This document shows, piece after piece, positions 24,887 through 53,921 of a stretch of DNA of 64,000 nucleotides. A model generated the notes under the pieces. The model searched no databases, was not told the origin of the DNA, and saw only the letters and a list, made by a program, of their open reading frames with translations. Source of the DNA: an uncultured bacterium (GTDB lineage Bacteria; Pseudomonadota; Gammaproteobacteria; Burkholderiales; Burkholderiaceae_C). The stretch spans positions 1-64,000 of the forward strand of contig CAIKUF010000105.1 of assembly GCA_903830565.1 (NCBI GenBank), written 5' to 3'. The translations under genes were made by a program, and so were the position numbers. How positions within the stretch are numbered: the first letter of the stretch is position 1; every line of letters begins with the position of its first letter.

Positions 24887-26427
24887 GCGGACATGAACGA
24901 CCCAGCGCCGTTGATGTGGTTGAGTTTGTCGGTCCAGGAGGGTGCGCGCTTGGCCTTCACAGCAGCTGGGGGCTGGCGCCCGATGGCCATCTGGCACATC
25001 CAGCTGACGCTGTCCACCTGGTCGTCGTGCACGCCGGCCGGGAACCTCAGCATCTCCAACCTGGCAGCGTCGTACCACTCGGCGTGGTCGCTGAACGACA
25101 CCATCCCCTGCTGCATCCGGCCCTGAAGCGGACGCGCCCGGGCCATCTTGTCGCTGATGGGCTTGAGCACGGTGATGGCGGGATATTGCTGGCGTTCTCG
25201 CATTCTCTTCTTTAGTAGAGCTTCGATTGCACGGTAAATCTGCCCGTCTTCAAACCCGAGCTGTTGCCCGGAACTATACCACTTCTTACTTAGATTTAAG
25301 ATCGCCTCAACGATGAACAGGGCGTCGGCGCTCTTGAAGCGGACGATTTCAGCGACGTGCAGCACGTCGTTCTCGTCCTGCAGCCCGACGGTTCCGACCG
25401 TGTAGTCGTTCTGTTTCTTCTCGCTGATGGCGAAGTCCCAGGCGATGAACACGTTGGCGCGCTTGACCTCAGGCAGCGGCGCGCGGCGGAAGTGCTCCTT
25501 CAGGAAGTACGCCCCGTCGTCCGGCACCGGGTTCTGCTGGTACAGGGCAGACCAGAAGCGCGGGCTGATGGTGCGCTTGATCTGGTTCAGCTTGGCGATG
25601 TCGTACCGGGCGGGGTGAAGGGCTTCACCCTTGAGTCGGAGGAGATGTCCGAGTGCCGGCGGTTCCGAGACGATGAGGTCGGTGTCGTAGTCGAGGTACT
25701 CATCGAACTCAGCGATGGCGGGGTACTTGACAACGACGAACTGATCGGCGTCGGGATCAGCGGCCATGGCCACTTGCAGCCTTCCTGCCAGATCATCGTC
25801 GTGCCACCACGTTTGCACCACCAACACCCCGCCTCCGGGGGCGAGCCGGGTATATGCAGTTGAGTCATACCACTCCTTCAGTTTTTCACGGTTGTCGGCG
25901 CTGTCCGCCTCTTCAGCATTCTTGATGGGGTCGTCGATCGTCAGGATGTGCGCGCCCTTCCCGGTAATACCGCCGCCCACACCGGCTGCGACGTACCCTC
26001 CCCGCTTACCCTGCACGCCCCACTCTTCTGCGCCCTGAAAGTCCGGGTTCAGACGGGTCTCGAACACCGGTGAGTAGGCTGGATCGTTGATCACCTCCTT
26101 CACTTTCCGGCTGAAGGACATGGCCAGGCCCACGTTGTACGAGCAGGCGATGATTTCGTGGTCCGGGGCGCGCCCCAGGTGCCAGGCGGGGAACATCCGG
26201 CTGCCCAGCTCCGACTTTCCCGAGCGCGGGGGCATCAGCAGCATCAGGCGGGGGCTTTTCTTGTCCACCACGTCCTGGCTGAACTTCTCCAGGCGTCGGC
26301 AGATGTCTTCGTGGACCCAGCCGGCCTCGTACAGGGGGTTGATCCGCTGTGTGAAGGGCAGAAGGCGACGCCTGGAGAGCAGGCGGCTGGCCAGCTCGGC
26401 CTCAACTGGGGTCGGAGTCTTCGTCAT
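24883..26427 (-). CDS. Terminase large subunit
   Basis: This is a 514-aa protein. The ATPase half has a Walker A-like MPPRSGKS (about residues 65-72), a Walker B-like ILTIDDP (about 162-168) and a motif III region near VVQTWWHDDD. The nuclease half has IAWDFAISEKKQNDYT with a metal-binding Asp, followed later by HDDQVDS. This matches the motor plus RNase H-fold nuclease layout of phage terminases. It packages DNA into the prohead at the portal. Its start overlaps the end of terS. A short AT-rich island with a TCTAA-like motif lies inside its coding sequence (25284). Confidence 0.92.
   Translation of the reverse strand: MTKTPTPVEAELASRLLSRRRLLPFTQRINPLYEAGWVHEDICRRLEKFSQDVVDKKSPRLMLLMPPRSGKSELGSRMFPAWHLGRAPDHEIIACSYNVGLAMSFSRKVKEVINDPAYSPVFETRLNPDFQGAEEWGVQGKRGGYVAAGVGGGITGKGAHILTIDDPIKNAEEADSADNREKLKEWYDSTAYTRLAPGGGVLVVQTWWHDDDLAGRLQVAMAADPDADQFVVVKYPAIAEFDEYLDYDTDLIVSEPPALGHLLRLKGEALHPARYDIAKLNQIKRTISPRFWSALYQQNPVPDDGAYFLKEHFRRAPLPEVKRANVFIAWDFAISEKKQNDYTVGTVGLQDENDVLHVAEIVRFKSADALFIVEAILNLSKKWYSSGQQLGFEDGQIYRAIEALLKKRMRERQQYPAITVLKPISDKMARARPLQGRMQQGMVSFSDHAEWYDAARLEMLRFPAGVHDDQVDSVSWMCQMAIGRQPPAAVKAKRAPSWTDKLNHINGAGSFMSA
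25284..25294 (-). promoter_or_regulatory. TCTAA-like motif inside terL
   Basis: The sense strand reads ATCTTAAATCTAAGTAAGAA, one base from the consensus core. It falls in codons for ILNLSKK, where TTA, AAT, CTA and AGT codons make an AT-rich island unlike the surrounding gene. It may be a chance match or an internal promoter. Confidence 0.25.
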
Positions 26428-27019
26428 CGAGTGCTGGCGCTGAAAGCAGCGCGGTTGGGCTGGCCTGGCTGATGATTTTCAGCAGCTCGGCGTCTGACAT
26501 GGAGTTCATGCGGTCCAGAACGACGTTCCCGGTGATGTCGATCTTCACGCGGGACTCCACAGGGGCGTAGTAGCCGGCCATCTTGCCCAGCTCCCGGGCG
26601 GCGGAGACCATCGTGGCCGGCTCGCTCATGAGCTTGGCCATCTCGAAGGCTTCGAGGTGCATGTCCATCACCGACTTGCGGGTGCACTGCGCGGCCTCCT
26701 CGTATTTCAGCTTCTCAGCCTGGTACAGGGCCAGGATATTCGGTCGCTTGGCCATGTCGTAGCAGAAGGACGTGTTGCCCTCGTAGCCTGAGCGGGCGGC
26801 GGCGGCGCAGATCGTGTCACCGGCGGCCCAGGCTTCGACGAAGCGTCGTTGCTGGGCGGTGAGCGGCATGTTGGAGTCGTCGGTGCGGGACTTGGTCTTG
26901 GACCGCATGGTGCTGATGCCTGTCTTAGGTGGCAGCGTGCGTTTGGGTTGGGGCCCGAACTTGGGTTTGCGTCCGGGCTTACCTCGGGGCTTGGACTCGA
27001 TGAACTCTTGTGTGGCCAT
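26402..27019 (-). CDS. Terminase small subunit
   Basis: This is a 205-aa protein. Residues 1-50 are a basic Lys/Arg/Pro/Gly-rich tail. From about residue 51, MPLTAQQRRFVEAWAAGDTI and AAARSGYEGN match the N-terminal helix-turn-helix of the Terminase_2 family, followed by a helical oligomerisation region. It recognises phage DNA for packaging and hands it to TerL. The ATG at 27019 is preceded by a TCTAA motif, and a shorter start at the MPLTAQQ methionine is possible. It is the first gene of the leftward late unit. Confidence 0.85.
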   Translation of the reverse strand: MATQEFIESKPRGKPGRKPKFGPQPKRTLPPKTGISTMRSKTKSRTDDSNMPLTAQQRRFVEAWAAGDTICAAAARSGYEGNTSFCYDMAKRPNILALYQAEKLKYEEAAQCTRKSVMDMHLEAFEMAKLMSEPATMVSAARELGKMAGYYAPVESRVKIDITGNVVLDRMNSMSDAELLKIISQASPTALLSAPALDDEDSDPS

Positions 27020-27029
27020 GGAGTGGCAT

Positions 27030-27040
27030 TCTAACTTAGA
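27030..27040 (-). promoter_or_regulatory. TCTAA-family motif upstream of terS
   Basis: Exact TCTAACTTAGA on the plus strand, 10 bases before the terS ATG. In the sense direction it is extended to TCGAAGCTCTAAGTTAGAAT. The TCGAAGCTCTAAG part recurs on the plus strand at 33481 and 47100. It probably marks the start of the late operon. Confidence 0.5.
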
Positions 27041-27049
27041 GCTTCGAGA

Positions 27050-27065
27050 TTATTCCAAGGAATAA
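27050..27065. promoter_or_regulatory. Perfect inverted repeat in the divergent control region
   Basis: TTATTCC and GGAATAA are separated by AA, a 16-base palindrome. It lies between the leftward late operon (27019) and the rightward accessory cluster (27239), in the only AT-rich stretch of a 219-base divergent intergenic region. It could be an operator for an unseen repressor. Confidence 0.4.
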
Positions 27066-27170
27066 ATTTCTGAAATTTTTAGGAAATCGGGGGCGTGGGT
27101 CCCTCCCCGGGTTCCGGGATTCGGGTACCCCACTTCGGATTCGCGTCTCGTGAGTCTGAGAAAGGGGACC

Positions 27171-27196
27171 CTAAGCCCCGGAGTACCGGGTCTTAG
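27171..27196 (+). promoter_or_regulatory. Tetraloop hairpin with CATC box, copy 1
   Basis: An 11-bp stem (one mismatch) CTAAGCCCCGG / CCGGGTCTTAG closes an AGTA loop. TCGTGCATC follows at once. It lies 42 bases before the ATG of the first accessory gene. It is the first of four such elements in this cluster. Confidence 0.6.
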
Positions 27197-27238
27197 TCGT
27201 GCATCCATTGCGTTCTCAACCAACCAAAGGATCTCATC

Positions 27239-27577
27239 ATGAACACATCATCTACCCAAGCAACTCAGTCCAACACCGAACTCGGTGTGCGCATCTGCCG
27301 TTACGCAGTGAACAGCTTCTGCTGGGGCCTTGGCCTCGCAGCCACATGGGCGTGCAGTGGCTTCATGCTCAGCCTCATCGTGGCTGTGCTCATGAGCATC
27401 CTCATGTATGTACTGGCCAAGCTGCTTCAGTTCATTGGCGACATGTACCTCAGCGCTACTAGCTACGCAGCCATCGGCGGCCATGCACGCAGTGCCATCA
27501 CCAGCGTCACCTCGCTGTTCAGCCGCAAGGCCATCGTCGCTGCACAACATGGTTACCAAATCAAACACAAAGGCTGA
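27239..27577 (+). CDS. Membrane protein of the accessory cluster
   Basis: This is a 112-aa protein. AAGGA lies upstream of the ATG. Two adjacent hydrophobic segments lie at about residues 27-47 (FCWGLGLAATWACSGFMLSL) and 48-66 (IVAVLMSILMYVLAKLLQF), followed by a basic C-terminus. Inner-membrane location is likely. It shares its general plan (two helices after a polar N-terminus) with the 145-aa protein encoded at 27994. The family is not recognised. Confidence 0.65.
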   Translation: MNTSSTQATQSNTELGVRICRYAVNSFCWGLGLAATWACSGFMLSLIVAVLMSILMYVLAKLLQFIGDMYLSATSYAAIGGHARSAITSVTSLFSRKAIVAAQHGYQIKHKG

Positions 27578-27791
27578 GCTGCTCAGCCACATCGCGGCTT
27601 TGGGCGCAGAGCTTGCTACTCAGGCACTGTATATCCAAACAGTTCATGCTGAACTCTCGGTGGCTCGGAGCTACGTGCCTAAAAACGGCGCAGCAAGGCC
27701 TGTGCGAGCCCCGTGGCGCCGTCCTGAGTGGATGGAGGCTGCGAGGGCTTTGGCCATCGCTTCCGGCCGTCCTGTACTGGCTTCGGCGTGA
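27549..27791 (+). CDS. Small soluble protein overlapping the first membrane gene
   Basis: This is an 80-aa protein, MVTKSNTKAELLSHIAALGA..., with a helical N-terminal half and a basic, Arg/Pro/Trp-containing second half. It overlaps the end of the preceding gene by 29 bases in another frame. The opening MVTK is shared with the 27994 protein. Coding is plausible from composition and position; function unknown. Confidence 0.45.
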   Translation: MVTKSNTKAELLSHIAALGAELATQALYIQTVHAELSVARSYVPKNGAARPVRAPWRRPEWMEAARALAIASGRPVLASA

Positions 27792-27886
27792 GGCCGGTAA
27801 CGGCAAAGGTTATGCGTTCCTTGCATAACATCGTGCTGCTCACGCCCTGGATCGCCATCGGCGTGATCTTGGCATGGAGAAGCTGA
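27788..27886 (+). CDS. Possible 32-aa membrane peptide
   Basis: A GTG overlaps the preceding stop (GTGA). The product contains one hydrophobic segment, IVLLTPWIAIGVILAW. An internal ATG at 27812 would give 24 residues. It ends inside the 5' arm of hairpin copy 2. Weak: it rests only on coupling and hydrophobicity. Confidence 0.3.
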   Translation: MRPVTAKVMRSLHNIVLLTPWIAIGVILAWRS

Positions 27887-27908
27887 GTCGCCGTACCCGG
27901 CGGCTCAG
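27883..27908 (+). promoter_or_regulatory. Tetraloop hairpin with CATC box, copy 2
   Basis: An 11-bp stem (one G·T pair) CTGAGTCGCCG / CGGCGGCTCAG closes a TACC loop. TCGGTCATC follows at once. It lies 85 bases before the ATG at 27994. A second short stem, GTCTGAG / CTCAGAC, lies between it and that gene. Confidence 0.6.
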
Positions 27909-27993
27909 TCGGTCATCTACCTTGATAACTCTTCCGTCTGAGCTTTCTCAGACTGAAGCGCATCAGCTTCACAACCCAACCCAAGGAAACATC

Positions 27994-28431
27994 ATGGTCA
28001 CCAAATTCAAAGCTATCAAAACTCCTGTCGCTGAAGTCATTCAAGACGTTCAGCCCAAAGAACCCATGTCGTATCGCGAACAGCTGCATGCTGCTGTCGA
28101 AGAAATGTACGGCGACACCAATGTGCCAGCCATCAGTGCAAAGCGCAAACTGGTTGCAACTGTGCTCTCGTTCGCGGCAGCGTTCGGCACTGGCTACCTG
28201 ATCGGCACGATCATCAGCTATGCCCTCATCGGCATGGCGCTCATGTCCACCAGCTTGTTCATGATGCTCATGTCATACATGCTTGCAATCATCCTCGCTG
28301 GTTATCTCGGCAGTGTTGTCGGGCGCGCAGTCCACGACGCTGTCATCGGGCACACCGTCGAGAACGCAGTGGCTGACACCTACAGCTACATCAAGAGCCT
28401 GTTCAGCAAGTCTGAACCTGCCGCAGCATGA
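27994..28431 (+). CDS. Membrane protein of the accessory cluster
   Basis: This is a 145-aa protein. The chosen start is the ATG at 27994, preceded by CCAAGGAAACATC; a longer frame from 27874 would read through hairpin copy 2. A polar N-terminal domain (about 1-55) is followed by two or three hydrophobic segments (about 58-80 and 82-110), with small-residue motifs GTGYLIG and GYLGSVVG. A short cytosolic tail ends KSEPAAA. Function unknown. Its stop overlaps the next start (ATGA). Confidence 0.65.
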   Translation: MVTKFKAIKTPVAEVIQDVQPKEPMSYREQLHAAVEEMYGDTNVPAISAKRKLVATVLSFAAAFGTGYLIGTIISYALIGMALMSTSLFMMLMSYMLAIILAGYLGSVVGRAVHDAVIGHTVENAVADTYSYIKSLFSKSEPAAA

Positions 28432-28715
28432 TCGAGATGGGCATCGTAGTAGGCATTGGCCTACTCATCACCTTGGTCAAGATGAACTGGAAGTGGCGCA
28501 TGCACATGCTATCCAACCCACTGTTCGTCGACCTAATGATCTTCATCGCTCTGTGCCTCATTCACTGGGGCACTTTCAGCGGTGTCATGGTCGCAACCGT
28601 TGGCGCCATGGTCTGCTCACTCACGCTGAGCGCAGCACGTTGGCTGTATGGCCACAACGAAGCTGGCATGTACGTGCCTGGCTACTTCGACATCAGGAAC
28701 AAACTTCCGCAGTAG
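28428..28715 (+). CDS. Polytopic membrane protein of the accessory cluster
   Basis: This is a 95-aa protein coupled to the preceding gene by ATGA. Three hydrophobic segments (about 4-20, 33-48 and 50-70) and a polar C-terminus are visible. The close coupling of two membrane proteins suggests a complex. No family recognised. Confidence 0.65.
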   Translation: MIEMGIVVGIGLLITLVKMNWKWRMHMLSNPLFVDLMIFIALCLIHWGTFSGVMVATVGAMVCSLTLSAARWLYGHNEAGMYVPGYFDIRNKLPQ

Positions 28716-28787
28716 TTCAACCTGCGCGTGGCATCTTCGCCTGCTTCTTAGGTCACGTAAAAAAGATAGCAAGTTGGCACTTGGACA

Positions 28788-28813
28788 CTACGCCCCGGAG
28801 TACCGGGGCGTAG
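28788..28813 (+). promoter_or_regulatory. Tetraloop hairpin with CATC box, copy 3
   Basis: A perfect 11-bp stem CTACGCCCCGG / CCGGGGCGTAG closes an AGTA loop. TCGTTCATC follows at once. It lies 38 bases before the next ATG (28852). It is the cleanest copy and shares the CCCCGG-AGTA-CCGGG core with copy 1. Confidence 0.65.
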
Positions 28814-28851
28814 TCGTTCATCTCCATTGTCATTTACTTCAAGGATTCGCC

Positions 28852-29064
28852 ATGTCACAACTACTTATCGAAGAGATCCCATTCAAGCCCATCCGTGATG
28901 AACGCCTGCATCGCAGCGCGGGAATCATTGATTGGGACACCCAGTGGGACCACGAAGCTGATGAAGACGAAGACCAGGACGAAACGTCTTGGGGCTCTGA
29001 CCCTGCTGACATCCTCGAACACCGCCAAGAGCGTGCTCGCTTGGAGCTTCTATCTGAGATCTAA
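28852..29064 (+). CDS. Small acidic protein of the accessory cluster
   Basis: This is a 70-aa protein starting MSQLLIEEIPFKPIRDERLH, with a strongly acidic centre rich in Asp/Glu. AAGGA lies upstream of the ATG. No membrane segment. Small acidic early phage proteins often bind host factors or mimic DNA, but nothing here identifies a target. Confidence 0.6.
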   Translation: MSQLLIEEIPFKPIRDERLHRSAGIIDWDTQWDHEADEDEDQDETSWGSDPADILEHRQERARLELLSEI

Positions 29065-29070
29065 GTTCGA

Positions 29071-29102
29071 CTCTTCATACCCAGCGTGCTGGGTATCGAG
29101 AG
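29071..29102 (+). promoter_or_regulatory. Tetraloop hairpin with CATC-type box, copy 4
   Basis: ATACCCAG / CTGGGTAT closes a CGTG loop and is extended outward by CTCTT / GAGAG (one G·T pair) after a mismatch. ACGTCCATC follows at once. It lies 38 bases before the ATG at 29141, the same spacing as copy 3. Confidence 0.55.
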
Positions 29103-29140
29103 ACGTCCATCTCAAACAACCAACCTTTAACTGGAACATC

Positions 29141-30082
29141 ATGACTACAAACCTCACCTCTATCGCCACCGCAATCCGCACTCACCTGTTGCCCACGGGC
29201 ACCATGGCTACGCCGCTCGTCGGCGTAGCGTTCTTCGACCCGATCGACCTGCTCATGGACAAAATGGGCCACTCGCCCACGCTGTACTCGCGTGTCATGG
29301 ACTCCATGGCATGGATGCTGGATGCAAGCTGCATCAACCAAGCACGCACTACCTTGTTCGCTCGCTACAAAACGCAAGAGATTGAAGACTGCATGAACTT
29401 CAAAGACTTCTGCCAGCAAGTAGCTGAGGACATCAGCCACGACACGCTGTACGAAGGCGACGAGTCCAACGAACTCACGTTGGCTACGCTGCTCGCACTT
29501 CGCGAACACTGGCACGACGCCGCTGCATCTGCTGCTGCTGCGGATGACCATGACTACAAGTGCAAGAGCCTGCGCCAGCAGCTCGACGAGGAAAAGCCAC
29601 AGAGCGCGAGCGTGGATGTCCGTGCAAACTTCAAGGCATACGCTGCTATCGAAGCTGAAGGCAACACTGTGCTCGCTGACGAACTCTATGCAGCCATGGT
29701 TGCACAGGACGTCATCGTCGCGCAATCTCGTGCACAGTCCAACAAGGAACTGATCCCTGTCATTCTCGAGGTCTTGCGTGCAGCTCAGCATCACGCTCCG
29801 TCGTCCGCACGCTTCGACCATCTGCCGTCGACAGTCCAACGTCGCTTGACCCAGTTCGCGATCGGCGCCATCGAACGCACTGTGAAGGATCTGACCAAGA
29901 AGCTGGCCAAGCAGCCACTCGCCTTCGCACGTGCTGTCGTCATCGCCAAGGCCACGACCGTTGCGCTCAGCGCAGTGATCAAGGCGAAGTTCAGCGAAGC
30001 AGCTGAGCTGGAGAACGTCACGTCGCAAACTGCGATCGACATCGGGCGCAATGCCAAGCGCGTTGCCTGCTCCATCGACTGA
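29141..30082 (+). CDS. Helical protein of unknown function, last gene of the accessory cluster
   Basis: This is a 313-aa protein. The chosen start is the ATG at 29141 (MTTNLTSIATAI); a longer frame from 28895 would overlap the acidic gene and read through hairpin copy 4. It is mostly helical and soluble, with Ala-rich (DAAASAAAADDHDYKC) and basic (VKDLTKKLAKQ) segments. No catalytic motif is recognised. It is followed by a GC-rich hairpin and then by copy 1 of the long inverted repeat. Confidence 0.6.
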   Translation: MTTNLTSIATAIRTHLLPTGTMATPLVGVAFFDPIDLLMDKMGHSPTLYSRVMDSMAWMLDASCINQARTTLFARYKTQEIEDCMNFKDFCQQVAEDISHDTLYEGDESNELTLATLLALREHWHDAAASAAAADDHDYKCKSLRQQLDEEKPQSASVDVRANFKAYAAIEAEGNTVLADELYAAMVAQDVIVAQSRAQSNKELIPVILEVLRAAQHHAPSSARFDHLPSTVQRRLTQFAIGAIERTVKDLTKKLAKQPLAFARAVVIAKATTVALSAVIKAKFSEAAELENVTSQTAIDIGRNAKRVACSID

Positions 30083-30093
30083 TGAGCACAAGA

Positions 30094-30113
30094 CCAGGGC
30101 CACGAGGCCCTGG
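30094..30113 (+). terminator. GC-rich hairpin after the accessory cluster
   Basis: A perfect 8-bp stem CCAGGGCC / GGCCCTGG closes an ACGA loop, 11 bases after the last stop. No uridine tract follows, so it may be a pause, processing or protective 3' structure rather than an intrinsic terminator. Confidence 0.5.
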
Positions 30114-30157
30114 CCTCACTTCGTTCGGAAGAGGCAACGGACTAGGGTAAACCCTGG

Positions 30158-30303
30158 TTACGAAACACGTGTAATTTACAGGCTGAAACCCTTACTACAA
30201 CTACTATATACCCCCTCTCTCTCTCTTTTCTAACTTCAATTTTAGAAGTGTAAGTGTAATAAAAGGGGTTGTAGCTATAGAGAAGGTCTTACACTATTAC
30301 ACT
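30158..30303 (+). repeat. Long inverted repeat, copy 1 (candidate origin or control element)
   Basis: This AT-rich 146-base element fills most of the 350-base gap between 30083 and 30432. It matches the reverse complement of 55982-56127 in long blocks: a 22-base block from 30158 (TTACGAAACACGTG...), a 24-base block from 30240 (TTTTAGAAGTG...), GTTGTAGCTATAGAGA and GGTCTTACACT. GTGTAA occurs at 30169, 30248 and 30254, and its complement TTACAC at 30289 and 30297. A CT-rich run lies at about 30213-30229. Repeated hexamers in an AT-rich tract beside the primase-helicase gene resemble iterons. Confidence 0.85.
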
Positions 30304-30394
30304 GACTCACTCACAAATTGATAGCATAAGTGCTCACTAACTTATGAAGCCACTATCTGACGTGATTCTTACAGCTTCAATCTGCCATCTCATG

Positions 30395-30405
30395 TCTAAA
30401 ATAGA
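30395..30405 (+). promoter_or_regulatory. TCTAA-family motif upstream of the primase-helicase gene
   Basis: TCTAAAATAGA, 27 bases before the ATG at 30433. It is identical to the copy upstream of the 1618 gene on the other strand. It probably belongs to the promoter of the replication block. Confidence 0.45.
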
Positions 30406-30432
30406 CTACCGCACAAGTTTGAAAGCATCTGC

Positions 30433-33766: not shown

Positions 33767-33826
33767 ACCACCCGCCTTTCAGCCCTAAGCCCTCACAGGC
33801 TGAGGGCAAACTCACCTCAAAATCTT

Positions 33827-34150
33827 ATGTCTAACGTCGTCGCTCTAAGAAAACCCGCCCCGGAGCGCAAGTCTCGGGCCAACGCTGCATCCGCTGCACC
33901 GCAAGGAAAAGACAAGGTGGTGCTGCCTGTGCTCAGCAACCGCACACCAGTCTCCATGAAGCCTGGCACGTTCAAGAAACGCATCAAGAAAGAGAACGAA
34001 ACACCACCCCGCTCTTCATTCATCTGGGGCTCAGATTTGTACGACGGGGCTGAACTCAGACCTTACCAGGGCCGACCTGGTGCCAACGACGCTCTCAGTT
34101 TCCCGTCACGTAACGGTGACTTCTTCGCATACCGAAAGGACGCAGCATGA
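33827..34150 (+). CDS. Basic early protein
   Basis: This is a 107-aa protein, MSNVVALRKPAPERKSRANA.... The N-terminal 65 residues are Lys/Arg/Pro/Ala-rich and look disordered; the rest has aromatic residues. The leader reads AAAATCTTATGTCTAAC, a TCTAA-like context without a ribosome site. Its stop overlaps the next start (ATGA). Confidence 0.55.
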   Translation: MSNVVALRKPAPERKSRANAASAAPQGKDKVVLPVLSNRTPVSMKPGTFKKRIKKENETPPRSSFIWGSDLYDGAELRPYQGRPGANDALSFPSRNGDFFAYRKDAA

Positions 34151-36129: not shown

Positions 36130-36645
36130 ATGTACACAACACTGAACAAAATCCGCGCCTGCGCACCCTGCGCTAATGGCTGGACAAAGCTCCTGAAGAA
36201 TCTCGGTAAGGCGAAGCCCGATGACGAGCCGCTGAAGATCACAACGATTCTTGACAGTAACGGGCTTGATGATGCTCTGTGGTGCCTGCGCGCAGTAGAT
36301 GGCTATCAGCAGGAAATGCGCCTCTATGCGGTTGACTGCGCTAGAAGTGTTCAGCATCTGATTGATGACCCACGCAGTGTTGCAGCGATTGATGTAGCAG
36401 AGCGTCATGCCTATGGGTTGGCTACAGAGCAGGAACTGGACGCAGCATGGGAAGCACGGGGCGCAGCACGGGACGCAGCACGGGACGCAGCACGGACCGC
36501 AGCACGGGCCGCAACATGGCACACAGCACGGGGCGCAGCACGGGACGCAACATGGCACACAGCATGGGACGCAACATGGCACGCAGCACGGGCTGTGCAA
36601 GCCGACTTACTGCGCACTGTCTGCGCGGAGATTGAGAACCGTTAA
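36130..36645 (+). CDS. Repeat-tailed early protein
   Basis: This is a 171-aa protein. Residues 1-105 form a globular helical domain (MYTTLNKIRACAPCANGWTK..., DDALWCLRAVDG, VAERHAYG). Residues about 106-155 are Ala/Arg/Trp/His repeats (AARDAARDAARTAARAATWH) encoded by 12-base DNA repeats. Proteins with this helical domain and an Ala-rich repeat tail are common in prophages; their function is unknown. GAAGGAAATGAA includes the ribosome site. Confidence 0.65.
   Translation: MYTTLNKIRACAPCANGWTKLLKNLGKAKPDDEPLKITTILDSNGLDDALWCLRAVDGYQQEMRLYAVDCARSVQHLIDDPRSVAAIDVAERHAYGLATEQELDAAWEARGAARDAARDAARTAARAATWHTARGAARDATWHTAWDATWHAARAVQADLLRTVCAEIENR
36441..36593 (+). repeat. Degenerate 12-base tandem repeat in coding sequence
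   Basis: About 12 units of GCAGCACGGGAC and variants (GCAACATGGCAC, GCAGCATGGGAC) occur here. The period is a multiple of three, so all frames on both strands stay open and produce long spurious frames, including Cys/Pro-rich and Arg/Ser/Thr-rich ones. Copy number could change without breaking the real gene. Confidence 0.85.
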
Positions 36646-52803: not shown

Positions 52804-53103
52804 ATGCCGCAGCGCATCCTGAACTTGCAGGAGGCTGCGGCCTTCCTGCGCATCCACAAAACTACAGCACAGGCCTTGGCTCGTGCCGGCACGCTCCCTG
52901 CCATCAAGGTTGGCCGGGAGTGGCGCTTTCTTGAAGAGGCACTGCTATGTCACTTTACCAACCCAAAGACTCCACAGTCTGGTGGGCCAGCATCACGCTC
53001 AACGGCGAGCGGGTACGTTTCTCAACTGGAGAATATGATCGCCAAGCGGCGCTCAAAGTCCACGACCAGCGCCGCGCGGCGCAGCACGACCAGCCCAAGC
53101 TGA
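52804..53103 (+). CDS. Excisionase-like helix-turn-helix protein
   Basis: This is a 99-aa protein. Residues 1-48 (ILNLQEAAAFLRIHKTTAQA, then GTLPAIKVGREWRF) match the MerR-like excisionase/AlpA helix-turn-helix family (HTH_17). The C-terminal half (about 49-99) overlaps the integrase gene by 157 bases in another frame and is Ser/Thr/Arg-rich and probably disordered. Its place directly before the integrase and 1.3 kb from attP makes an excisionase or integration-control role likely. Confidence 0.72.
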   Translation: MPQRILNLQEAAAFLRIHKTTAQALARAGTLPAIKVGREWRFLEEALLCHFTNPKTPQSGGPASRSTASGYVSQLENMIAKRRSKSTTSAARRSTTSPS

Positions 53104-53921
53104 AGGGCACCACATGGGGCTCGGCCGTGATGAAGTGGGTCGGCGCTGAGACGCGCAGCGACTCGGATATTCAGAGCCTGGCCAAGTTCGGTCGGTACTA
53201 CAAGGACCGCCCGCTCTCTTCGGTCACCGCCGACTCTATCGACGAGGCGCTGAAGAAGTTCGTCAAGAGCGACGGCACCTACAACCGCTATGCCACCACG
53301 ATCGCTGCGCTGCTCACCCTCTCCAGGCTGAACATCAAAGTGACCCGCCGGCGCGACAAGACTGCCAAGACACGCGACTGGCTGACCCACGAGCAGTGGA
53401 AGAGACTGCGCGACGCTTTGCCCCAGCACCAGAAGGCTATGGCCACATTTGCCGTTACGACTGGACTTCGCCAGGCCAACGTGCTGGGGCTTCTTTGGGA
53501 GAAAGTCGACCTGGAGCGCAAGCTCGTGTGGGTCGAAGCCGAAGACGCCAAGGGCGGAAAAGCCATAGCTGTACCACTTTCAAAAGGAGCTGTTGATGTA
53601 CTTCGATCCGCGCAACGCGCGAACCCTATCTGGGTCTTTACGTTCCGGGGCCAGCCGGTCTCGGAAATCAAAACGGCTTTCCAGGCAGCGTGTGTTCGGG
53701 CTGGTGTGGGCTCCATCGACCCAGCGTTGGGGGTCTATTCAGGTTTCACCTGGCACGGTCTGCGTCATACCTGGGCCACCTGGCACGTCCAGAACGGCAC
53801 CCCTCTGGAGGTCCTTCAGAAACTGGGTGCGTGGGCTGACCTTCGCATGGTCATGAGATACGCCCACCACAGTCCTGGCCATCTGGCTGGGTATGCAGAC
53901 AACTTAGGAGATGAAGAATGA
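52947..53921 (+). CDS. Tyrosine integrase
   Basis: This is a 324-aa protein. Catalytic signature: TTGLRQANVLGL (Arg, about residue 174), HGLRHTWAT (H-x-x-R, about 269-273), LGAWADLRMV and RYAHHSP (nucleophile Tyr, about 304). The N-terminal arm-binding and core-binding domains are present (STGEYDRQAALKVHDQRRAA). It catalyses site-specific recombination, presumably at the tRNA-Val match 430 bases downstream. Its start lies inside the excisionase-like gene. Confidence 0.92.
   Translation: MSLYQPKDSTVWWASITLNGERVRFSTGEYDRQAALKVHDQRRAAQHDQPKLKGTTWGSAVMKWVGAETRSDSDIQSLAKFGRYYKDRPLSSVTADSIDEALKKFVKSDGTYNRYATTIAALLTLSRLNIKVTRRRDKTAKTRDWLTHEQWKRLRDALPQHQKAMATFAVTTGLRQANVLGLLWEKVDLERKLVWVEAEDAKGGKAIAVPLSKGAVDVLRSAQRANPIWVFTFRGQPVSEIKTAFQAACVRAGVGSIDPALGVYSGFTWHGLRHTWATWHVQNGTPLEVLQKLGAWADLRMVMRYAHHSPGHLAGYADNLGDEE

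Follow-up and report, generated by a model that had tools for sequence, protein, structure and literature searches.

By sequence comparison, genes of one operon in a group of phages are preceded by a real, conserved and lineage-specific system of hairpins. We analysed this system in a stretch of DNA of 64,000 nucleotides (termed here the window), which comprises bases 1-64,000 of the 65,713-base contig CAIKUF010000105.1 (assembly GCA_903830565.1), binned with a bacterial genome (4.13 Mb, 339 contigs). Three hairpins of the window (copies 1-3) constitute one family, termed type A, in which the pairing is conserved while the letters change, and in which a short box follows the stem. A fourth hairpin (copy 4) belongs to another class and is treated separately below.

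Conserved pairing in the type A hairpins

The original prediction described a single hairpin-plus-box element in four copies, and all four hairpins, each directly followed by its nonamer, are present in the window (Table 1). Of the three stems said to comprise 11 bp, that of copy 3 has 11 pairs, whereas copy 1 holds 10 pairs and one C.T mismatch; the fourth stem shows the 13 pairs ascribed to it, together with one C.C mismatch. An ATG follows copy 1 at 42 bases and copies 3 and 4 at 38 bases, in agreement with the spacing of 38-42 bases proposed for three of the four. Copy 2 is located 85 bases ahead of its ATG (27994), because a hairpin that had been overlooked (27931-27958) intervenes. The fifth hairpin without a box, expected after the last gene, was located as well. 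The combination of arms with at least 10 standard pairs, a loop of 4 bases and [TA]CGNNCATC occurs four times in the window, and among 200 dinucleotide shuffles of the window it was absent from 193 and found once in 7. The box alone says little, since TCRNNCATC is present in 36 copies in the window compared to 19.9 expected. No standard terminator or riboswitch had been thought to fit, and neither a terminator scan nor Rfam placed one at the four hairpins: scans for terminator-like and sigma-70-like sites found nothing on them, Rfam 15 gave no match in the window at the gathering cut-off, and the three sub-threshold matches obtained at a relaxed threshold included none at the four hairpins and two over the fifth.

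The type A family was assembled from relatives of the window phage. Of 183 loci around related terminases, 80 were kept as a starting set, and the hairpins of the same operon were catalogued. A first alignment held 16 members; the final one holds 25 members from 8 phages, several of which are contig fragments (three members each from the window, L005, L007 and L013, two each from L011 and L177, five from L180 and four from L183). Members were picked by pattern and pairing, by eye in the case of L007a and L013c, and by the covariance model described below in L180 and L183, loci that stem from a protein search. The common geometry comprises 11 stem positions, a loop, a box directly 3' of the stem and an invariant G seven columns past the box. 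The loop reads RGTA in 18 of the 25 members, TACC in copy 2 and is wider in the six members from L007 and L013, so that its length is 4 in 19 of the 25; stems reach up to 11-12 pairs. TCRnnCATC is exact in 18 members, and copy 1, L180 and others deviate from TCRGTCATC. In most members an ATG follows 38-55 bases past the stem, in a list of spacings that contains one spurious ATG (L005c, 31) and one doubtful case (L180a, 38 versus 72 in another count).

These relatives argue for the selection on structure that the original prediction had proposed: in the 25 members the pairing is kept and the letters are changed. Both sides have changed at 9 of the 11 pair positions, 90.1% of 263 cells are paired (25-48% if the partners are slid by 1-3 columns), and the covariation score of the alignment was reached by none of 500 shuffles, figures that have to be read with the warning of the tool that relatedness inflates covariation counts, and with the fact that some members were chosen for their pairing. 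Unaided, RNAalifold recovered the six outermost pairs, and in five of these both sides have changed. Outer stem letters also vary between the copies within one genome, with the pairing kept (L005, L180). The single G.T pair in the window, originally taken as a compensating change and a sign of selection, is weak evidence by itself, and the relatives carry the argument.

A fairer check, since it starts from the box rather than from the pairing, covered the six operon regions first compared. It yielded 10 exact copies of TCRGTCATC, all of them sense and directly 3' of a member stem, and none in antisense orientation. The hairpin finder marked five of these 10 members; the other five (L007, L013) have loops of at least 9 bases, beyond the range of the finder, and 4-7 pairs.

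A covariance model of type A was built from copies 1-3 and 13 relatives, and hence includes the window copies by construction. It matched copy 1 (27169-27217, 55.1 bits, E 3.8e-16), copy 2 (27881-27929, 45.7 bits) and copy 3 (28786-28834, 59 bits, E 1.6e-17) at full length. Copy 4 gave no match at E values of up to 1. The notion of one element in four copies is not supported, and there are two classes. The model produced three full-length sense matches in the window and three in the 4.1 Mb of the host bin. The matches in the window are all placed inside this operon, and the same holds for the three matches in the 65,901-bp L005 phage record. Any match at all was obtained in 6 of 23 records searched, and in 60 related genomes the model found, beyond the three of the window, five single weak matches in five genomes (E 1e-4 to 8e-4). 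Scanning viral contigs with the pattern GGAGTACC plus box returned 51 stretches, six of which form at least 5 pairs around the loop: three belong to the type A family (L085, L123 and L130, the latter two being the contigs of L005 and L006), whereas the other three are near-identical 6-pair matches elsewhere. A second pattern returned six stretches in five contigs, all from this phage group. The search for the element in other phages, suggested along with the original prediction, places it ahead of genes in related phages.

Apart from the family, a hairpin GCCCTAAGCCCTCACAGGCTGAGGGC at 33780-33807, about 20 bases ahead of a gene at 33827, has a type A-like stem, no box and no model match.

Leader hairpins of related phages and the type B class

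Judged by their sequences, a few lineages carry the CATC box, and at the corresponding position other relatives show hairpins that differ in loop and downstream sequence. Leaders were compared in 51 genomes or contigs, which comprise the window, KPP25 and related loci, with near-duplicates dropped by hand; the skip lists of 15-17 ids contained the annotated phiA008 and KPP25 loci, and KPP25 and four window leaders were entered by hand in the leader count. The genes of the relatives came from a simple purpose-made caller that missed small genes and left some gaps too long. Of the 230 leaders of at least 60 bases, 127 contain a hairpin whose 3' end is 25-70 bases short of the start codon; 30 shuffles gave 9.5 such leaders on average and 19 at most. 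Where the gap measures 60-105 bases (58 cases), the hairpin starts at a median of 6.5 bases past the stop codon and ends 43 bases before the start codon. A hairpin also occurs ahead of the first gene of the operon, where no upstream operon gene exists, and 88 of 266 internal junctions, such as p2/p3, are overlaps or gaps of less than 25 bases.

The stems and loops of these hairpins are specific to each genome. Arm identity amounts to 0.514 within and 0.327 between genomes (the largest value in 100 permutations was 0.374), the same loop is shared at a frequency of 0.192 within versus 0.025 between genomes, and the identity of the 20 bases downstream is 0.477 versus 0.394. For the hairpins ahead of first genes, arm likeness between genomes is no higher than elsewhere (0.340). 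Near-identical hairpins are found within some genomes (L043, L046, L056), and the four such hairpins of KPP25 are unchanged in YMC17/07/R4900a and phiR18. As a separate observation, the ribosome-binding site in leaders such as those of L005, L007 and L011 often lies within a longer repeat, CTAACTTAGGAG ... CATCATG, a second start-associated sequence.

Copy 4 and the hairpin at 27931 represent, on sequence grounds, a separate class termed type B, in which two overlapping hairpins are predicted ahead of the ribosome-binding site. Copy 4 resembles the hairpins ahead of the homologues of gene p5 in L005, L007 and L013, which are likewise preceded by a type B element. In this class two hairpins follow each other, and in several elements the 3' end of the first doubles as the 5' arm of the second, e.g., CTTC...GAAG with GAAGC...GCTTC, or CTCG...CGAG with CGAGC...GCTCG in L069. 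A scan for type B printed 41 candidates, some of which are plainly other things, and the type B alignment (A4) was poor and served for no count. The two hairpins of the element at 27931-27971 (P1 and P2) share bases, the element ends 22 bases before its ATG, and the computed fold of this leader contains P2 with a shortened P1. In copy 4, read by analogy with type B, ACGTCCATC can join a second small hairpin (GAGA/TCTC), which is absent from the minimum-energy fold and from the list of the type B scan. Since ACGTCCATC can form part of this second hairpin, the box of copy 4 is probably a coincidence and belongs to that hairpin. In the type B elements of the window (27931-27971, 29071-29113) and of L005, L007, L013, L030, L069 and L177, the hairpins compete for the same bases. 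With GAAG able to pair with CTTC on either side, type B is a possible RNA switch.

Operon genes and phage genome

Table 1. Hairpins, boxes and genes of the operon, and the gene of the giant virion protein (positions in the window)
Feature	Position	Strand	Remarks
Type A copy 1 (W1), hairpin	27171-27196	+	arms 27171-27181 and 27186-27196; loop AGTA
Box of copy 1, TCGTGCATC	27197-27205	+	ATG at 27239
Gene p1, 112 aa	27239-27577	+	after copy 1; no match in Pfam or PHROGs
Gene p1b, 80 aa	27549-27791	+	overlaps p1; likeness (by eye) to an L011 gene preceded by a type A hairpin
ORF of 24 codons	27812-27886	+	hydrophobic stretch; ends IGVILAWRS; stop codon inside 5' arm of copy 2
Type A copy 2 (W2), hairpin	27883-27908	+	loop TACC; one T.G pair
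Box of copy 2, TCGGTCATC	27909-27917	+
Type B element	27931-27971	+	P1 27931-27958; P2 TGAAGC 27954-27959 with GCTTCA 27966-27971; overlooked in the original prediction
Gene p2, 145 aa	27994-28431	+	after copy 2 and type B element; no match in Pfam or PHROGs
Gene p3, 95 aa	28428-28715	+	overlaps p2; without a hairpin of its own; PHROGs 29412 and 37899, function unknown
Type A copy 3 (W3), hairpin	28788-28813	+	12 pairs with outer A-T 28787/28814; loop AGTA
Box of copy 3, TCGTTCATC	28814-28822	+	ATG at 28852
Gene p4, 70 aa	28852-29064	+	after copy 3; no match in Pfam or PHROGs
Type B P1 (copy 4)	29071-29102	+	loop CGTG; ATG at 29141
Possible P2 of copy 4	29100-29113	+	GAGA 29100-29103, loop CGTCCA, TCTC 29110-29113; includes ACGTCCATC
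Gene p5, 313 aa	29141-30082	+	after copy 4; no match in Pfam or PHROGs
Hairpin closing the operon	30091-30116	+	after the last gene; no box, no T-run
Giant virion protein, 2591 aa	56132-63907	minus	relatives in 19 of 19 records searched

The hairpin operon runs rightward; it is flanked by the small terminase gene, which runs leftward, and by the primase gene. In the loci collected at that stage, tblastn gave 3 matches for p1, 4 for p2, 1 for p4 and 10 for p5, compared to 41 for p3 (KPP25 included) and 45 for the primase; the genes between the hairpins turn over fast. Viral contigs scanned at the peptide level with p5, p2 or the giant protein as query yielded no relative, despite the distant p5 and p2 relatives seen by tblastn in the collected loci. 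Ends like that of the 24-codon open reading frame (ORF) ahead of p2 occur in L005, L007 and L013, as judged by eye.

The large terminase of the window is 42.9% identical to that of KPP25 and 44.8% to that of Aeromonas phage phiA008, and its DUF5906 primase is 40.4% identical to that of KPP25. Based on these identities, the window phage is placed among the KPP25-like phages, near Pseudomonas phage KPP25. The two ends of the phage contig (C105) have a 141-bp direct repeat in common, and the contig is therefore probably a complete circular genome. By blastn, the region 26400-30200 gave no match in 50,697 phage records. Scanning genome contigs with gene p3 revealed 24 loci, 16 of which are named for taxa such as Acidovorax, Herminiimonas or Ramlibacter, which are Betaproteobacteria; the remaining eight are labelled Proteobacteria, Gammaproteobacteria, Anaerolineae or Phycisphaeraceae. 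In the giant virion protein the last 840 residues are conserved, with HExxH positions that are invariant among 18 aligned sequences, as in metallopeptidases, and the N-terminal 1750 residues are variable.

Several further features of the window were recorded. Positions 27040-27170, the divergent region that separates copy 1 from the small terminase gene, contain motifs that by eye recur in relatives and in KPP25, namely an AT-rich stretch, (C)TTCGGATTC and AGGGG.CCC, and are perhaps a packaging site or a promoter region. Ahead of the primase gene lies an AT-rich stretch (30120-30430), a possible replication origin; the comparable gap of KPP25 holds a repeated unit of about 40 bases. An ORF at 36130-36645 is repetitive, with ARDAAR-like units, and its repeats are readable in several frames (around 36400-36600). 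An integrase-family gene is located at 52947-53921.

Possible roles of the hairpins

Starting from the pairing, the box, the position and the lineage-specific letters that are observed, we infer that the element would act as RNA, affect expression and be read by a factor. The reading we favour, with somewhat less than even confidence, is that each type A unit acts in cis, as an intercistronic and start-associated element with a border and leader role in the transcript. The hairpin would form shortly after the stop codon of the preceding gene (for the first gene, within its leader) and would mark the border of two messages through protection of a 3' end or through processing, and the next gene would keep its own short leader. 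The box may be where a nuclease or an RNA-binding factor, different from lineage to lineage, makes contact, and the outcome would be an expression set gene by gene within one operon. It is also conceivable, if unlikely, that the hairpins form a gene-by-gene code, in which the hairpin of a lineage, in some cases with a box, would be an “address” read by a co-evolving, lineage-specific factor, address and factor being rewritten as a pair.

A number of points weigh against a border and leader role in RNA. Two members pair weakly (4 pairs in L007a, 5 in L013c), and in the longer gaps (27 cases) the hairpin tracks neither the stop nor the start codon consistently. In phage T7, hairpins processed by RNase III separate the early genes and also precede the first of them, which gives rise to single-gene messages, and the hairpins described here likewise stand between genes and ahead of the first; their stems, however, are shorter than usual RNase III substrates. 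No reader protein has been identified, and none was systematically searched for. Mismatches of the G.T type outnumber those of the A.C type 32 to 14 in the leaders, the direction expected of RNA, but also 98 to 50 on the same strand at large, in background windows that include the leaders themselves (Fisher p 0.72); under stricter criteria, in a small sample, the ratio was 6 to 5. Other leader settings gave 50 to 16 and 46 to 17, and a random-strand background 80 to 68. Because the same strand has a like excess, the surplus of G.T does not decide between RNA and DNA. An open leader, in which the hairpin would insulate an unstructured ribosome stand-by site, was rejected, as the leaders are not more open than shuffles (mean z -0.34 and -0.37 in sets of 127 and 20, respectively). 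Pairing of the segment past the box with the ribosome-binding site appears in individual folds (copies 1 and 3 of the window; the L013a leader has z -3.05), though not generally.

Among published systems, the nearest kind are the SAS and ESAS elements of Cluster K mycobacteriophages. In the available parts of PMC3203893 and PMC12699233 these are described as repeated elements of unknown function that accompany the start codons of numerous genes within one section of the genome; roughly half of the SAS sites have inverted repeats upstream, and the consensus of these repeats differs between subclusters. The repeated location at the starts of several genes in one region is shared by the hairpins studied here. 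The SAS element itself, in contrast, is a 13-bp sequence, GGGATAGGAGCCC, just before start codons, to which the window has no match with up to 2 mismatches. Moreover, its authors see little evidence that the ESAS repeats pair in mRNA and favour DNA-binding proteins, whereas pairing is supported by covariation here. The literature on KPP25 and Kochitakasuvirus mentions no such hairpins in titles and the openings of abstracts, the words promoter, terminator, hairpin and intergenic are absent from the available part of one of these papers (PMC13340246), and a search on repeated or intergenic hairpins in phages, mostly without subscription papers, found nothing.

Unlikely, yet together with an RNA operator one of the two main rival readings, is a role as terminators or attenuators before single genes, in which the box would here replace the T-run and a host or phage factor would be needed. 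Intrinsic terminators and intercistronic attenuators consist of a GC-rich hairpin behind a stop codon followed by a T-run; the hairpins of this operon are GC-rich as well and begin close behind stop codons, and one of them closes the operon, though without a T-run. At least 5 T in 8 bases follow 34 of 115 hairpins of other lineages versus 10 of 84 in antisense orientation, and at least 6 T follow 15 versus 2. The remaining 81 of the 115 have no such run, nor do any of the 12 hairpins of the box lineages; the four hairpins of the window are not terminator-like and show a conserved box instead, and a hairpin precedes even the first gene. An RNA operator, whose loop and box would be bound by a phage or host protein that represses or activates translation or antiterminates at each gene, agrees with the geometry of loop, arm and box fixed in 25 members, and with loops and stems common within but not between genomes, as if element and reader changed together. 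We consider it quite unlikely, given that no candidate protein was found, though none was sought systematically, that the loop of copy 2 differs and those of L007 and L013 are wider, and that the likeness within genomes could stem from copying between gaps.

Such copying is the core of a further, improbable explanation, according to which the hairpins are homologous linkers or repeats that play no part in expression, spread between gaps and serve as joints for swaps of gene cassettes. The fast turnover of the intervening genes and the near-identical hairpins within L043, L046 and L056 would fit, but copying alone is insufficient for the outer stem letters that differ within the genomes of L005 and L180 with the pairing kept, and most members keep to a narrow range of distances from the start codon. 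The hairpins might finally be promoters of the N4 type, formed on extruded template-strand DNA and read by a virion RNA polymerase. N4 promoters carry a 3-base loop and a 7-bp stem with conserved and free bases, the latter of which may change if the hairpin is kept (as far as the available part of PMC4496689 describes), and this resembles the covariation found here. In both systems, hairpins whose stems combine conserved with free bases stand ahead of early genes, and a giant virion protein is encoded leftward in both phages. This protein of 2591 residues, however, has no polymerase match in Pfam, PHROGs or NCBIfam, as judged by sequence only, and its conserved C-terminal part carries the invariant HExxH positions; N4 gp50 found no homologue among 920 ORFs from the window and from KPP25 and phiA008 stretches (lowest E values 0.27 in phiA008 and 7.9 in the window). 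Type A loops of at least 4 bases and stems of about 11 pairs also contrast with the 3-base loop and the stem of 5-7 bp in N4 promoters, and the hairpins described here precede most genes with a gap. Promoters of this kind are very improbable.

The pairing in the type A element has good support, and the element is compact; the phage group, with KPP25 as an isolated laboratory member, carries versions of its own, which makes the tuning of single genes within an operon directly testable. These natural hairpins may serve to tell apart terminators, processing sites and protein-bound RNA.

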